In this document: positions 18,559 through 23,196 of the stretch, one piece after another
Numbering within the stretch: the stretch's first letter is position 1
How the letters are laid out: the number at the start of each line of letters is the position of its first letter
From: a virus
Direction: 5' to 3' (one strand)
DNA: 37,131 nucleotides
IMG/VR virus record: IMGVR_UViG_3300005527_000018
Coordinates: 1-37,131 of that record
Notes under the pieces: model-generated
Databases searched by the model: none
What the model was told of the DNA's origin: nothing
What the model saw: only the letters and a program-made list of their open reading frames with translations
Translations under genes and position numbers: made by a program

Positions 18559-18900
18559 TCAGGTCGGACCCTCGGTGTCGTGAAGTGCAATCACATCGGC
18601 ATAGCGCCGCTCCTGCTTCACTTGCTGCGCCGCCGCGCATTCCTCAAGCGTCAGGCCGAGCAAGGTCGCGCACTCGCTGAGGCACCACAAGACGTCCCCG
18701 AGCTCGTCCCGCACCTCGGCCAGCGTGATTGTGTCGCCCTCGGTCAGCGACCACCGTCGCACGGCGTCCGCGACCTCGCCCGCCTCCGCACACAGCCACA
18801 GGGCTGCCATCGCCTGCCGGTCGGTCTGGGGCGCCCACGGCTGCGTCTTGCGCAGGCTCGACCGCGCACACCGGGCCTGTAGGTCATCCAGCGTCGTCAT
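18559..18900 (-). CDS. MazG-like nucleotide pyrophosphohydrolase
   Basis: 113 aa, all-alpha. The metal-binding pattern is present: CAEAGEVADAV (Glu39, Glu42) and, 24 residues on, RDELGDVLW (Glu66, Asp69), the ExxE-spacer-ExxD of the all-alpha NTP pyrophosphatases (MazG/dUTPase-like). These hydrolyse NTPs, dNTPs or alarmones to monophosphates, and phage versions are thought to clean nucleotide pools or alter the host stringent response. Length matches single-domain MazG-like proteins. The start overlaps the nuclease gene by 17 bases. Confidence 0.85.
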   Translation of the reverse strand: MTTLDDLQARCARSSLRKTQPWAPQTDRQAMAALWLCAEAGEVADAVRRWSLTEGDTITLAEVRDELGDVLWCLSECATLLGLTLEECAAAQQVKQERRYADVIALHDTEGPT

Positions 18901-19633
18901 GGGCCTCCCTGGGCAGCTTCGCGCTGCCGCGTGCGTGGTACACGATCAAGGCCCCGCAGAACACACGCCAACCCGCGTCCAGCGTCTCGCTGTCGATGGC
19001 AATTTCGTTGACGTTCTCGCCGTCGATCGGGACGTGAAACACAAGCCCCCCGTCGATGTCCGTCCCGTCCGGATGGCGAATCCATAGGTGCCGATACGCG
19101 GCAAGCTGCGGGACCACCTCGTCGTGTGCGTGCTTGCCCGTCTTGAGATCGGCGACGAACCACCGCCCGCCGCGCTCCACGATCATGTCGAGCGTCCCGC
19201 CGTAGCCGGGCAGGTCGCCCATGCGCCACGGCACGCTGTCGACGCTGTGGGCGACCTCGACAGCGACGACGCGGTCGCAGGTTGCTTCGATGTGGGCGAT
19301 GGCCCGCTGCGCACACTCGGCCACCTTCGCCGACTCGGGGTCGGACACGTCGACCACGACGGCCTCGCCGCGGAAGTGCGCCTCGACCATGGCGTGCGCT
19401 CTCGTCCCGAGGTCTGCTGCCTTGTCGCGGCGAGCGAATACCGCAGCCCTGCCGAGGATCCTCGCCTGGTCAGGCGGCAGCCCGTTGGCGCACGCATCGG
19501 CCGTCGCTTCCGCGGCCACCGTCGCGGCCCATCCAATCAGTGCGGGCTTTTCCAGCACCCCGAGGACGGTGGTGACGCCCGGCAGGCGCTTGCCGTTGGC
19601 GTCTTTGTATTGTCGTCGTGGCTTCTTCGTCAT
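18884..19633 (-). CDS. PD-(D/E)XK nuclease, RecB/Cas4-like phage exonuclease
   Basis: 249 aa. Residues in order: GTRAHAMVE (His80), EVAHS (Glu126), GTLDMI (Asp149), ADLKTGK (Asp162, Lys164) and QLAAYR (Gln176, Tyr180). This is the RecB-type nuclease core with the downstream QxxxY motif. Together with the Sak4-like and DUF669-like genes it would provide 5'-3' resection for recombination and genome processing. I see no iron-sulfur cysteine cluster. ATG at 19633 overlaps the preceding HTH gene's stop. Confidence 0.88.
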   Translation of the reverse strand: MTKKPRRQYKDANGKRLPGVTTVLGVLEKPALIGWAATVAAEATADACANGLPPDQARILGRAAVFARRDKAADLGTRAHAMVEAHFRGEAVVVDVSDPESAKVAECAQRAIAHIEATCDRVVAVEVAHSVDSVPWRMGDLPGYGGTLDMIVERGGRWFVADLKTGKHAHDEVVPQLAAYRHLWIRHPDGTDIDGGLVFHVPIDGENVNEIAIDSETLDAGWRVFCGALIVYHARGSAKLPREAHDDAG

Positions 19634-19782
19634 GGTGTCTGCCCCTTCATCTCTTTTCGCACTTGGTGGACAAGGTCTTTGTGACAGCCGAGTCGTGTAA
19701 CGATGGCCGTCGTTTCGACGCCCTTGCGCAGCAGATCAGCAATGCGCTCGCGCTTGGCGGTGTCTGGTTTACGGCCGGTCAC
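19630..19782 (-). CDS. 50-aa helix-turn-helix microprotein
   Basis: GTG 19782 overlaps the previous stop (GTGA), with GGGGAG five to six bases upstream. Residues 8-45 (TAKRERIADLLRKGVETTAI then LGCHKDLVHQVRKEM) form a homeodomain-like or Hin-type helix-turn-helix. A similar 52-aa protein is encoded at 20999-21157, so the operon carries two mini DNA-binding proteins. They may be regulators, or remnants related to terminase small-subunit or recombinase HTH domains. Confidence 0.6.
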   Translation of the reverse strand: MTGRKPDTAKRERIADLLRKGVETTAIVTRLGCHKDLVHQVRKEMKGQTP

Positions 19783-20102
19783 GTCGTCTCCCCTTGCGCT
19801 TTGGCGATGGCCGCGCGCAGCACGGCCACGTCGTCGGGGGCGAAGTCGACGGTGATGAACTTTGCGAACGGCGGGACGTTCACCCTGTTCTCCCGCTCCA
19901 TGATGCGAAGCGCGAGCGTGCAGGCCGCACGCAGACGTTCGATCTCCTCTTGCGCCGCGTCCAGTCGCTTTGCCTCGACGCGGGCCGCCAACAGGCGCAG
20001 GGCTTCGTCGCGTTCTTCGATGGCGGCGTCTCGCTGCTCGACAATCTTCGCCGTCAGTTCGGCGTCGATGCAAACATGGCAGACAAATTGGGCGCGCTTC
20101 AC
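19779..20102 (-). CDS. 107-aa early protein, CxxC plus coiled coil
   Basis: GTG 20102 overlaps the previous stop, with GGGAGA upstream. The N-terminus has FVCHVC, a single CxxC, then a long charged coiled coil (AAIEERDEALRLLAARVEAK onward), then a short beta segment (FAKFITVDFAPDDVAV). It ends LRAAIAKAQGETT, the same tail as the two upstream genes, whose DNA also supplies the ribosome site of the next gene. The function is unknown. Confidence 0.6.
   Translation of the reverse strand: MKRAQFVCHVCIDAELTAKIVEQRDAAIEERDEALRLLAARVEAKRLDAAQEEIERLRAACTLALRIMERENRVNVPPFAKFITVDFAPDDVAVLRAAIAKAQGETT
19780..19819 (-). repeat. Gene-junction repeat A (encodes AxAKA-G-TT end plus ribosome site)
   Basis: About 40 bases closely similar to 20100-20139 and 20381-20418. 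The core on the + strand, TTTGGCGATGGCCGCGCGCA, is identical in copies A and C. It encodes the C-terminus of one gene and the ribosome site and start codon of the next. Confidence 0.75.
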
Positions 20103-20383
20103 GTCGTCTCTCCCTTCGCCTTGGCGATGGCGGCGACAGCTGCGTGCATTTCCTGCGTCCACGCGGCATATGCCACCGCACTGAAACTGCGAGCCAGAAC
20201 CTCCAATGCCGCCAGCAGATCAGGCGCGGCGGCGATGAGGTGGGCGTGCTCGGCTCCGCTCGGGTCAGGTTCGACGCCTGCGTGGACGTCGCAGATACAG
20301 GCGATGCCGGCGTCATCCCATACGCACCAGCGGCCATCGACAGCTTCGGCAAACCACGGTCCCGGTGTGTGCTTCGTCGTCAT
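20099..20383 (-). CDS. Early protein with LIAAAPDLLAALE tail family signature
   Basis: 94 aa, ATG 20383 after GGGGG. Starts TTKHTPGPWFAEAVDGRWCV and contains AHLIAAAPDLLAALEVLARS, a combination seen in very many phage early proteins of unknown function (HTPGPW...LIAAAPDLLAAL). Two Cys (CICDVH) lie between. It ends with the shared AIAKAKGETT tail. The downstream part aligns with the 85-aa neighbour at 20380-20637, so the two are likely paralogues. Confidence 0.65.
   Translation of the reverse strand: MTTKHTPGPWFAEAVDGRWCVWDDAGIACICDVHAGVEPDPSGAEHAHLIAAAPDLLAALEVLARSFSAVAYAAWTQEMHAAVAAIAKAKGETT
20100..20139 (-). repeat. Gene-junction repeat B
   Basis: Second member of the junction repeat family; shares CACGTCGTCTC with copy A and CTTGGCGATGGC with copies A and C (one base changed). 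It joins the 94-aa gene's end to the 107-aa gene's GTG start. Confidence 0.7.
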
Positions 20384-20637
20384 GTCGCCCCCTTCGCTTT
20401 GGCGATGGCCGCGCGCACCTGCTCGCCGATGATCGTCGCAGTGTTTCTGCTCCATGTCGTCGCAGCTACCGCCTCGCACGCTGCCAGCAGGTCAGGCGCG
20501 GCGGCGATGAGGTGCAAAGCCTCGCGATCGCTGTGACTGTTTTGTCCGACGTCGCAGATGTGCGCGCCACAGTAACATGTAATCGTCCAATCAAGATTGC
20601 TTGTGTGCCATCCTTTTGAACAAACATGCGCCGTCAT
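20380..20637 (-). CDS. 85-aa paralogue of the HTPGPW/LIAAAPDLLAA family
   Basis: ATG 20637 overlaps the RusA-like stop (ATGA) with GGGGAGA upstream. The N-terminus has three cysteines (HVCSKGW, CYCGAHICD), possibly metal-binding, and the C-terminal part is LHLIAAAPDLLAACEAVAAT followed by RAAIAKAKGAT. It shares its second half with the next gene but has a different N-terminal domain, suggesting domain shuffling. The function is unknown. Confidence 0.62.
   Translation of the reverse strand: MTAHVCSKGWHTSNLDWTITCYCGAHICDVGQNSHSDREALHLIAAAPDLLAACEAVAATTWSRNTATIIGEQVRAAIAKAKGAT
20381..20418 (-). repeat. Gene-junction repeat C
   Basis: Third member, joining the 85-aa gene's end to the 94-aa gene's ATG start. 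It is nearly identical to copy A over 27 bases. Confidence 0.75.
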
Positions 20638-21002
20638 GCGTCTCCCCATGTCAACGCGATCTGCACCGCGTACTGTTTCGGCTCACCCTTGCGTTGTTCG
20701 TACCGCCACGCGATCGGGCCGCGCGGCCCATCATCGACGCCGAAGAACGCGGCGACCTCGTCGCGGATCGACTTGAACGCGCCCGCAAGGTTGTCGTCGT
20801 CGAGCATGCGCGGCGCGATGCGCGCCAGCGTGCATGTCGTCGGCGGCCTCGACAGGATCGGGCGACGGTGCGCGTGCATCGCCCACCCCACCGTGGCCCG
20901 TTCCTTCTTCGCGCGTGCTGCCCTGCGGGTCCAGTGAACGCGCGCGTTGAGCGCGGCGCCGAGGCGCAAGCCTTCGATCGGGATCACTGCTGTGATGATC
21001 AC
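20634..21002 (-). CDS. RusA-like Holliday junction resolvase
   Basis: 122 aa from GTG 21002 (ribosome site GGGAGGG). LNARVHWTRRAARAKKERA gives the basic N-terminal strand-helix, and RMLDDDNLAGAFKSIRDEVA followed by FGVDDG carries the RusA pattern: Asp68/Asp70 with Asn71, Lys77, and Asp90/Asp91. E. coli RusA uses Asp70, Asp72, Lys76 and Asp91. The length matches RusA (120 aa). It would act as a homodimer resolving four-way junctions made by the Sak4-like recombinase, and would debranch DNA before packaging. GTG overlaps the upstream 52-aa gene's stop. Confidence 0.78.
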   Translation of the reverse strand: MIITAVIPIEGLRLGAALNARVHWTRRAARAKKERATVGWAMHAHRRPILSRPPTTCTLARIAPRMLDDDNLAGAFKSIRDEVAAFFGVDDGPRGPIAWRYEQRKGEPKQYAVQIALTWGDA

Positions 21003-21157
21003 GACTTGCCCTCCCGTACCTGGCGCCTGATTTTGCGGACCATCGTCAGCCCGCATCCTGCACGTTCGGCAATCACTGTCTCGGTTAGACCGAGCGCGAT
21101 TAGGCGCAGGATGACCTCGCGCTTACGCTGCTTTTCCATCGACGCTGGGCTCGTCAT
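20999..21157 (-). CDS. 52-aa helix-turn-helix microprotein
   Basis: ATG 21157 overlaps the stop of the XRE-type gene (ATGA) and its own stop overlaps the RusA GTG (GTGA), so it fills the gap exactly. Residues 10-45 (KREVILRLIALGLTETVIAE then CGLTMVRKIRRQVREG) form a Hin-like helix-turn-helix resembling the 50-aa protein at 19630-19782. The ribosome site is weak (GTGTGGGA), so translation is probably coupled. Confidence 0.6.
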   Translation of the reverse strand: MTSPASMEKQRKREVILRLIALGLTETVIAERAGCGLTMVRKIRRQVREGKS

Positions 21158-21393
21158 TCCCACACCCGTACGCTAAGGGCCGGCGCAAGGTCGCCGCCGA
21201 AAAGGGCCGCCAGCCGGTCGCAGCAGTAGTCATCGGGGACGGCGCGTTCCTGTTCCCACAGGCAGACCGCTTGGCGCGTCACGCCGCACACGGTGGCGAC
21301 GTGCGACAAGCTGTAGTTTCTCGCGACCCGCAACGCCGCCAGTCGCTCGCCGTTGAGCCTGATTCGCTTCGGTCCCCTGTACCTGTCGATCAC
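21154..21393 (-). CDS. XRE/Cro-type transcriptional regulator
   Basis: 79 aa from GTG 21393 with CGAGGTG upstream. LAALRVARNYSLSHVATVCG then VTRQAVCLWEQERAVPDDYC is a textbook Cro/C1 helix-turn-helix with VTRQAVCLWEQ as recognition helix. A single-domain regulator of this size may repress the early promoters (23197-23262) or its own region, where an 8-bp inverted repeat lies just upstream (21438-21458). There is no partner repressor or integrase, so control of timing is more likely than lysogeny. Confidence 0.8.
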   Translation of the reverse strand: MIDRYRGPKRIRLNGERLAALRVARNYSLSHVATVCGVTRQAVCLWEQERAVPDDYCCDRLAALFGGDLAPALSVRVWE

Positions 21394-21491: not shown

Positions 21492-22055
21492 TCACTCGCC
21501 CTGCGCGACCTTGCGCCGGGCAAGGAACGCCGGGGCATTCGCCGCAGGCTTCGCCGCAGGCTTCGCCGCAGCGGAACCGCCGACGGTGGGCGCCGCGGGC
21601 TTCGGCGCGGTGGGTGCCTGACCGGCGACGGCCTCGCGCCGCTTGATTTTGTTCTTCGCCTCCCACTCGCCCTTGGCTGCCTCGACGTCGACGGCGGCGA
21701 CGCACTCGCGCTCAAGCATCGGCGCGAGGCTCGACCCGCCCACGCCGTAGGCTGCGAGCATGCGCACGACGTCAGCGCGACCGCGTGCCATGACCTTTCC
21801 GTCGGCGTGGGCCACGACGTAGCGCGACCAGATCTTGCGCCCGCGGTACTGCGACTCGTCGTCGCAGATCGTCTCTTCGATGCTCGCCATGATCGTCGTC
21901 GGGTTGTTCTTCGACGGCGCCACCTTCGCCGACGTGCACGTCACGCGGTACCGGCCTGGCGGCAAGAGATCGAAGGACGGCGCCTCGACCGTTGCGGTGT
22001 CGAACCCAAGATCCATGTCGTCGGTGCCATTGTTGTCGTCGTTCCAGTCGCTCAC
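21492..22055 (-). CDS. DUF669-like ssDNA-binding/recombination partner
   Basis: 187 aa from GTG 22055, ribosome site GAGGTA. The N-terminus is acidic (NDDNNGTDDMD), then the core FDLLPPGRYRVTCTSAKVAP, IMASIEETICDDESQYRGRK and WSRYVVAHADGKV, the layout of DUF669 proteins, an OB-like family encoded next to Sak4-type ATPases and proposed to bind single-stranded DNA. The C-terminal 45 residues are Ala/Pro/Lys-rich (VGGSAAAKPAAKPAANAPAF), encoded by a 12-base tandem repeat near 21540-21575. Adjacent to the Sak4-like gene, it probably loads or stimulates it. Confidence 0.72.
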   Translation of the reverse strand: MSDWNDDNNGTDDMDLGFDTATVEAPSFDLLPPGRYRVTCTSAKVAPSKNNPTTIMASIEETICDDESQYRGRKIWSRYVVAHADGKVMARGRADVVRMLAAYGVGGSSLAPMLERECVAAVDVEAAKGEWEAKNKIKRREAVAGQAPTAPKPAAPTVGGSAAAKPAAKPAANAPAFLARRKVAQGE

Positions 22056-22128: not shown

Positions 22129-22818
22129 TCAACCCGTGATCTTCGCGACGACCGCGCCCAAGTCGGCCGGTTCGTACGCGTCAAGCTTGCCGCTGCGGTC
22201 CTTCGCTACCGACTTCCCGTCGGTGGCGGTCAGCAAGTAGCGGCTCGCCACCTTGCCCCCGCTCCCGTCGTCCTCGTCGATGACGACAAGGCGAAAGACC
22301 TCGTCGAAGAGATAGGGCAGCGCCTCGCCAAGTTTGGCGCCTGGCATGCCGATGCTGTGGCTGACCCTGCTCGTCGCCTCGTCCTTCGTGCTCGCCAACT
22401 TCGCGGAGAAGTACACGCCGCAGGAAAGGTCGCGGAAGGCGCGCATGATCTTGACCATCTCGTCGGACAAGGCGCCGTACGCCTGTCGCGGATCCTTGGT
22501 CTTCGCCTTCTCGCTCGACAGCACGACTTCTGCGATCTCGCTCACGCTGTCGAGCACGACCCACGCGTAGCCGTGGTCGCCAGCGCGCAGTTCGGCGTAG
22601 ACGGCGCGCAGGGCTTCGATGGAGGTCACCTCGACCACGTCGGCGTCGATGTCGGCGCCTGCGAGGGACAGCAGCCCGGCTTCCGCGGAGATGATCAGGA
22701 TCTTCCCGGTGAGCGACGCGATCAGCGTGGTCTTACCGACGCCAGCGTTTCCGTACACGAGGATCTTTGGTGCGCGGGCATCAATCGCCTCGCGCAGACG
22801 AATCTTGAGCGACTGCAT
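22129..22818 (-). CDS. Sak4-like RecA-fold recombinase/annealing ATPase
   Basis: 229 aa, ATG 22818 with a perfect GGAGG site. Walker A is VYGNAGVGKTT (Gly23-Thr31) and Walker B is WVVLD (86-90), followed by SEIAEVV and a conserved AYGALSDEMVKIMRAFRDLS segment typical of Sak4/AAA_24 phage ATPases. Sak4 proteins are short RecA-like enzymes that promote single-strand annealing with a phage SSB-type partner. The co-operonic DUF669-like, exonuclease and RusA-like genes complete a recombination module. The gene follows the 34-aa microprotein after one base. Confidence 0.87.
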   Translation of the reverse strand: MQSLKIRLREAIDARAPKILVYGNAGVGKTTLIASLTGKILIISAEAGLLSLAGADIDADVVEVTSIEALRAVYAELRAGDHGYAWVVLDSVSEIAEVVLSSEKAKTKDPRQAYGALSDEMVKIMRAFRDLSCGVYFSAKLASTKDEATSRVSHSIGMPGAKLGEALPYLFDEVFRLVVIDEDDGSGGKVASRYLLTATDGKSVAKDRSGKLDAYEPADLGAVVAKITG

Positions 22819-22819
22819 G

Positions 22820-22924
22820 TCAGCCTCCGATCTGGGCAAAGTAGATGTCGACGGGGATGCCGCGTCGGACGGCCTCTCGCATGATGGCGCGACGAAAAGC
22901 GGGGCGGAGTGTGGTCCACGACAT
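22820..22924 (-). CDS. 34-aa microprotein at the head of the early operon
   Basis: ATG 22924, GGGAGA about seven to eight bases upstream, stop one base before the Sak4-like ATG. The sequence MSWTTLRPAFRRAIMREAVR continues RGIPVDIYFAQIGG, a basic amphipathic helix with a hydrophobic end. The last codons also encode the Sak4 ribosome site, so it may be mainly a coupling leader. Its reality is plausible, its function unknown. Confidence 0.45.
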   Translation of the reverse strand: MSWTTLRPAFRRAIMREAVRRGIPVDIYFAQIGG

Positions 22925-22960
22925 GATGTGATCTCCCTGTGTTGCTGTGTGTGTCGGTGC

Positions 22961-23152
22961 TCAGATGCGGGCGGCGAGGGCGACGGCGTCACGCTCGGCG
23001 GCGTCGACGGCGAATGCCGGGCGGACTGTGTCGCACTCGGCGACAATGCGGCCGTTGCGGGCGACGAGCGCGCCGTGGCACGTCGTGGCGCCGCGGATGA
23101 TGCGGATGCGGAGGGTCTTGCCGGACTTCGTGGTGATGGTCGTGGTCTGCAT
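22961..23152 (-). CDS. 63-aa first gene of the leftward early operon
   Basis: ATG 23152 with GGGAGA seven to eight bases upstream, 45 bases downstream of the proposed -10. The protein is strand-rich and basic at the start (MQTTTITTKSGKTLRIRIIR), then ATTCHGALVARNGRIVAECD and an acidic/Ala end. Being first after the promoter it is likely expressed earliest. It could be a host-takeover or anti-defence protein, but no family is recognised. Confidence 0.6.
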   Translation of the reverse strand: MQTTTITTKSGKTLRIRIIRGATTCHGALVARNGRIVAECDTVRPAFAVDAAERDAVALAARI

Positions 23153-23196
23153 GTCTGCGTCTCCCTGCTTTGCGGCATCGCCGCGTTGGTGAAGTC

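Follow-up and report, generated by a model that had tools for sequence, protein, structure and literature searches.

The window analysed here is a 37,131-nt stretch of viral DNA (IMG/VR record IMGVR_UViG_3300005527_000018, positions 1–37,131), the minus strand of which carries a run of small overlapping genes, A, B, C and D (ORF coordinates in Table 1), with two repeated elements, J1 inside genes and J2 at gene ends. In profile searches gene B matched phrog_1273 as a whole protein (residues 1–93, E=5.5e-18), the match of gene A (E=2.8e-9) was carried by J1 onward, and the C-terminal half of gene C resembled the same family weakly (E=0.036). The N-terminus of gene C was predicted by a single-sequence model to form one long helix, and the match of gene D to HTH_23 (E=2.4e-4) was below the curated cut-off. 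Two HTH genes were also found upstream of the array, and small HTH_23-like proteins on either side of it (19630–19782 and 20999–21163) may be paralogues. Elsewhere in the early region, a short 12-nt tandem repeat of the CGCCGCAGGCTT type lies at 21528–21571. Of four large plus-strand ORFs tested between 558 and 15657, three had no PHROG match and the fourth weakly matched a family without known function, which gives the contig the look of a little-studied phage.

Table 1. Genes and joint elements of the small-gene array and its surroundings (window coordinates).
Feature	Position	Strand	Description
Sak4-like annealing ATPase	22129–23178	minus	candidate recombinase, upstream of array; profile matches
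RusA-like resolvase	20634–21056		upstream of gene A; weak match
Gene A	20380–20637	minus	MTAHVCSKGW...RAAIAKAKGAT; N-part unclassified, with Cys, followed by J1, cassette and J2
J1 in gene A	20472–20514	minus	encodes HLIAAAPDLLAA
J1-to-J2 cassette of gene A	20414–20471	minus	unrelated to gene B cassette (40% nt identity)
J2 copy 1	20377–20413	minus	end of A, Shine-Dalgarno (SD) + start of B
Gene B	20099–20383	minus	MTTKHTPGPW...AAIAKAKGETT; phrog_1273 / HTPGPW protein
J1 in gene B	20200–20242	minus	encodes HLIAAAPDLLAA
J1-to-J2 cassette of gene B	20136–20199	minus	
J2 copy 2	20099–20135	minus	end of B, SD + start of C
Gene C	19779–20102	minus	MKRAQFVCHVC...RAAIAKAQGETT; N-part predicted one long helix
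J2 copy 3	19779–19815	minus	end of C, SD + start of D
Gene D	19630–19782	minus	small HTH_23-like protein; start inside third J2 joint
PD-(D/E)XK exonuclease	18884–19633	minus	adjoins gene D on downstream side; profile matches
MazG-like protein	18559–18900		downstream of array

The sequence-only reading had described three repeats in this array, each encoding the tail of one gene together with the SD and overlapping start of the next, and we found both this structure and their positions to be correct. The J2 copies are 37 nt long, copies 2 and 1 being 86% and 78% identical, respectively, to copy 3. The C-termini encoded by them follow the pattern AAIAKA[KQ]Gx(T)T, the SD-like runs within the three tails are AAGGGGG, AAGGGAGAG and AAGGGGAGA, and at every junction stop and following start share 4 nt (ATGA at 20380–20383, GTGA at 20099–20102 and GTGA at 19779–19782). 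Within the 3.5-kb region the top ungapped alignment of 37 nt reached 34/37, far above chance: 60 first-order Markov simulations gave at most 27/37. At the junction before gene A, where the RusA-like gene ends, the sequence GGGGAGACGCATGACG (20629–20647) resembles the 3′ part of J2 and lacks the AIAKA part.

Comparison of genes A and B revealed a second repeat, overlooked in the sequence-only reading: J1, 43 nt long, 88% identical between the two genes and encoding LIAAAPDLLAA. Gene C has no J1. The J1 of gene B is also 89–93% identical over 40–44 nt to sequences of unrelated phages. In a codon alignment of A and B, nucleotide identity was 88% in J1 and 83% in the J2 tail, with 42% in the N-terminal part and 40% between J1 and J2, so that outside the two elements the DNA is at background. 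The N-terminal parts of A and B gave no BLASTP alignment at E≤100, and no link of the gene C N-terminus to either was detected, in agreement with the earlier claim that the upstream domains differ. Used alone, the N-part of gene B matches phrog_1273, whereas those of A and C do not at E≤1. After removal of just the tail, A and B still aligned at E=1e-6, evidently owing to the shared J1. With identity confined to J1 and J2 and N-parts that do not align, ordinary whole-gene duplication, which would have undone the earlier proposal as the sole source of the repeats, is insufficient to explain them. In the P0002 structure model (mean pLDDT 70.5), J1 sits where a predicted beta part gives way to a helical one. 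The best match of this model in a PDB fold search had an E-value of 1.6, and its top matches in BFVD were all phage proteins with no assigned function.

J2 is a true gene-end element in other phages. Among the matches listed, AIAKAEG lay within 7 codons of a stop at 95 of 100 viral sites vs. 9 of 111 sites in bacterial or archaeal genome contigs, and most of these nine look phage-type. The AIAKA-x-G DNA pattern was found at no fewer than 122 viral sites, 100 of 122 being within 16 codons of the stop, mostly 8–9, as counted from the start of the motif. Within 10 codons of the stop, again among the matches listed, AAIAKA occurred at 64 of 130 sites, a figure that takes in loci chosen by the AIAKA-x-G pattern, compared with 8 of 108 for the same codons permuted (AKAIAA). 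Tailed genes overlapped the next start by ATGA or GTGA in 145 of 211 cases and carried an SD match of at least 5 nt in 120 of 214, vs. 623 and 380, respectively, of the 2133 other genes of the same loci. The commonest tail is AIAKAEG followed by two residues. As the loci were collected largely by joint searches, with gene starts in the relatives set by rule, these counts describe structure and not abundance. In nine bacterial genomes the J2 pattern gave three single sites and no arrays, and a literature search on the HTPGPW and AIAKA peptides found nothing. A tblastn search of 50,697 phage records with P0002, P0003 and three related queries gave no match, the queries being probably too short or divergent. 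The idea that J1 and J2 DNA is conserved across genomes beyond protein needs was rejected: codon conservation of the joints between genomes was no higher than that of other shared peptides, the codon excess of which was equal or larger.

The proteins that bear the tail differ in their fronts, which are not related to one another. Among 214 distinct tailed proteins there are HTPGPW, QPEALRLA/LRRLH, Cys-rich TEQHKCC, LGITK..RDGHL, MIRL and other fronts. The RDGHL family offers the simplest case: the joint SPRAAIAKAEGQ[TA]* closes two of its members, while two others stop just after RDGH[LM], with no joint. The check proposed earlier, for a common 3′ cassette on unrelated genes, was thus positive. 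A Sak SSAP ending in RAAIKKAKG (L492) was not counted as a tailed gene, since this may be that family's own end. Single phages can carry arrays of two to four tailed genes from different families (L511, L486, L548, L058), and near-identical joint repeats of 20–68 nt occur inside single phages. Between tails of unrelated genes in one genome, same-amino-acid codon agreement was 0.75 vs. 0.62 for shuffled partners (13 loci), and 2 of 2000 partner shuffles among loci came out as high as the observed 0.75; the codon-usage expectation was used solely beside this control, because the first loci had been chosen with fixed codons. Genes of L090, L182, L199 and L036 have both an HTP-type start (MSKHTP or MSAQHTP; bare HTPG in L036) and the tail, but what lies between is unrelated or very short, so the start of the gene may itself be a third joint. 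A different joint, CGAAGGAGGTTAGCCATGAGTGA, forms a perfect repeat before and after one gene of L636 (2986–3008 and 3353–3375); other sequences may thus be used in the same way.

Exchange of the segment between the joints is visible at the DNA level. In five gene pairs the J1-to-J2 segments are 86–99% identical over 99–140 nt, with background identity immediately outside: L019 (HTPGPW) with L486 (TEQHKCC), L060 (LRRLH) with L567 (HTPGPW), L006 with L110, L080 with L491, and L104 with L548. An automated screen recovered four of the five, together with weaker pairs, and missed L060/L567 through its J1 rule. In the reciprocal case, four TEQHKCC genes on four contigs have N-domains 88–95% identical over 243 nt and carry four unrelated cassettes and four different downstream genes; the remoter TEQHKCC relatives L636 and L637 are without J2. 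These cases show that cassettes have been exchanged between relatives in both directions. Exchanged cassettes differ at 12 of 90 synonymous and 3 of 294 non-synonymous sites, and are therefore under purifying selection. L006 and L110 are contigs _000002 and _000003 of source 2608642102, a type of IMG number that we take to denote single genomes and not metagenomes, and they appear to be two prophage contigs of one isolate genome. Over the 11.2 and 9.7 kb compared, their common DNA comprises the 132-nt cassette with J2 (95%), a 51-nt perfect match at the gene start and one 159-nt stretch (77%).

The window itself, sister contigs aside, matched the other loci, which were mostly chosen by J1 or J2, at J1 (20204–20247, 89–93%), at J2 with the start of gene B (20354–20415, 85%) and in the Sak4 gene, and nowhere else. 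Three sister contigs from three other samples are 99.99–100% identical to the window with the array unchanged, so that no exchange or recent insertion is visible across them within its own lineage. The earlier proposal of a modular unit that lets small genes be spliced in with coupling intact is supported in part. A modular unit that takes the coupling along is well supported in the relatives, where unrelated domains bear the tail, the tail can be present or absent, and tail-bounded cassettes occur in unrelated genes. The unit seen moving most clearly is, however, the J1-to-J2 half gene and not only a whole gene, and in most cases the tail closes a phrog_1273-type C-terminal helical module, being a bare 3′ cassette only sometimes.

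We consider it probable (roughly 0.7) that the genes are modular and recombine at two short joints, both in frame, with J2 keeping the following gene translated. J2 combines in one stretch the last ~10 residues (ARAAIAKAEGxx), the following gene's SD and the stop/start overlap, and J1 is a second in-frame joint, encoding LIAAAPxLLEAL or NxELLEAL. Together they split small early genes into a front module, drawn from several unrelated N-domains, a back cassette of ~15–35 residues from J1 to J2, and the joint, and on this reading the modules and cassettes have been reassorted, with breakpoints in or beside J1 and J2. Because J2 carries the ribosome site of the next gene, a segment bounded by it could be swapped without harming downstream translation, and breakpoints of this type presumably survive selection through the preserved coupling. 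The joints may provide the short homology used by annealing recombinases of phages, in the window Sak4 together with the exonuclease encoded on the same strand; ~30 bp has been taken as the Red beta minimum (PMC3945230).

The least improbable competitor is illegitimate recombination followed by selection. On this view breakpoints fall anywhere, and the survivors are those at domain borders or gene ends where frame and downstream translation stay intact; protein or ribosome constraints would conserve the joints, which would not act as substrates of recombination. The location of J1 at a predicted beta/helical border is in line with this, and it is the view favoured for most phage mosaic borders in PMC3029335. 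Breakpoints in conserved stretches fit this process and homology-driven recombination alike, so they do not separate the two; we nevertheless hold it to be unlikely, as both short sequences recur at borders in unrelated genes, near-identical repeats recur within single phages, and the tails of one genome are more homogenised than shuffled partners. Tandem duplication of one phrog_1273 gene, then divergence, with the tail and LIAAAP as the most strongly selected residues, would agree with A and B being adjacent, both matching phrog_1273 and aligning weakly along their length. Yet their N-parts do not align, gene C has just the end in common, and divergence cannot yield both near-identical cassettes behind unrelated N-domains and near-identical N-domains before unrelated cassettes. 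Duplication is contradicted as the sole cause, which we judge improbable, and could still account for A and B alone.

Convergence, in which the tail peptide is simply the translation of an embedded SD and overlapping start, gains from the commonest tail, which sets GGAGG ~7 nt before the ATGA start. We give it very little weight, because ARAAIA lies upstream of the SD, where its conservation is not needed for SD function, yet the tails seen share ARAAIAKA too, and because blocks of 99–140 nt of DNA are common up to the tail. Assembly chimeras could have been joined at the joints, which are 20–40-nt repeats in loci that mostly come from metagenomic contigs; this is just as hard to sustain, given that the exchanged pairs come from different samples, that shared cassettes have since diverged mainly at synonymous sites, and that three other samples contain the identical window array. 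L006 and L110 also bear a source number that, by the IMG numbering convention, is not metagenomic.

Recombination at joints of this kind has partial parallels. In lambdoid phages, conserved boundary sequences at module borders have been proposed as homologous recombination sites (PMC3029335, citing Susskind & Botstein 1978 and Clark et al. 2001 for HK620), and the joints are likewise short conserved sequences exactly at the borders of exchanged modules. By comparison with that account, J2 is coding: it forms the end of the upstream protein and contains the ribosome-binding site of the gene that follows. A second joint lies inside the gene, and J2 is found on unrelated genes of many phages. Start-associated sequences (SAS) of Cluster K mycobacteriophages, 13 nt long and placed at the ribosome-binding site (GGGATAGGAGCCC), sometimes with inverted repeats (PMC3203893), similarly repeat an SD ahead of unrelated small genes, but J2 exceeds them in length, codes for a protein tail and is partnered by J1, and the SAS consensus is absent from the joint sequences of the window. 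Lambdoid Ea22 proteins are mosaic, with a shared front, unrelated backs and a constant last tripeptide (+GE; PMC7093339, PMC10834534), given without explanation in PMC7093339. Like the tailed genes they are early phage proteins with a constant end and an SD-like tail: lambda ea22 (L639 548–600, J02459, minus) ends in AAAGGAGAGTGA, and its +GE terminus is encoded by an SD-like run beside a GTGA overlap, at which, in contrast to J2, no sizeable gene starts. No sequence link of Ea22 to the joints was found, and genes A–C had no Ead_Ea22 Pfam match at E≤0.1; as a lead, the +GE end could be a similar SD-bearing tail, a possible reading of this constant end in lambda. Fragments common to otherwise unrelated phage proteins, as also seen here, were surveyed as protein domain mosaicism by Smug et al. 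2023 (PMC10684548). Their sequence-based measure had a lower limit of 50 aa per fragment, which would miss most of the present units because they are shorter. Gene B belongs to phrog_1273 and the end of that profile is the AIAKA tail, but the tail is also found on proteins with fronts from outside that family. New relative to known boundary mosaicism is a coding joint that doubles as a ribosome-binding site and recurs on unrelated genes.

Whether phage mosaic junctions form by short-homology or random recombination is an old question, most borders having no common sequence. Here common-sequence borders recur in one operon and in many phages, and both reciprocal products are visible, which makes the question directly testable. 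The joints also suggest a reason for the AIAKAEG-like ends of many unannotated small phage proteins, and for annotation it follows that similarity in the tail only should not count as whole-protein homology. The three genes of the window are a local example of small early genes built from interchangeable front and back halves. Extended further, and here we are doubtful, early operons might share a common pool of N-domains and C-cassettes recombined via the two joints by the phages' own annealing recombinases. If true, such decentralised diversification would supply combinatorial small proteins, for instance anti-defence or host-takeover factors, from an operon that remains translatable.
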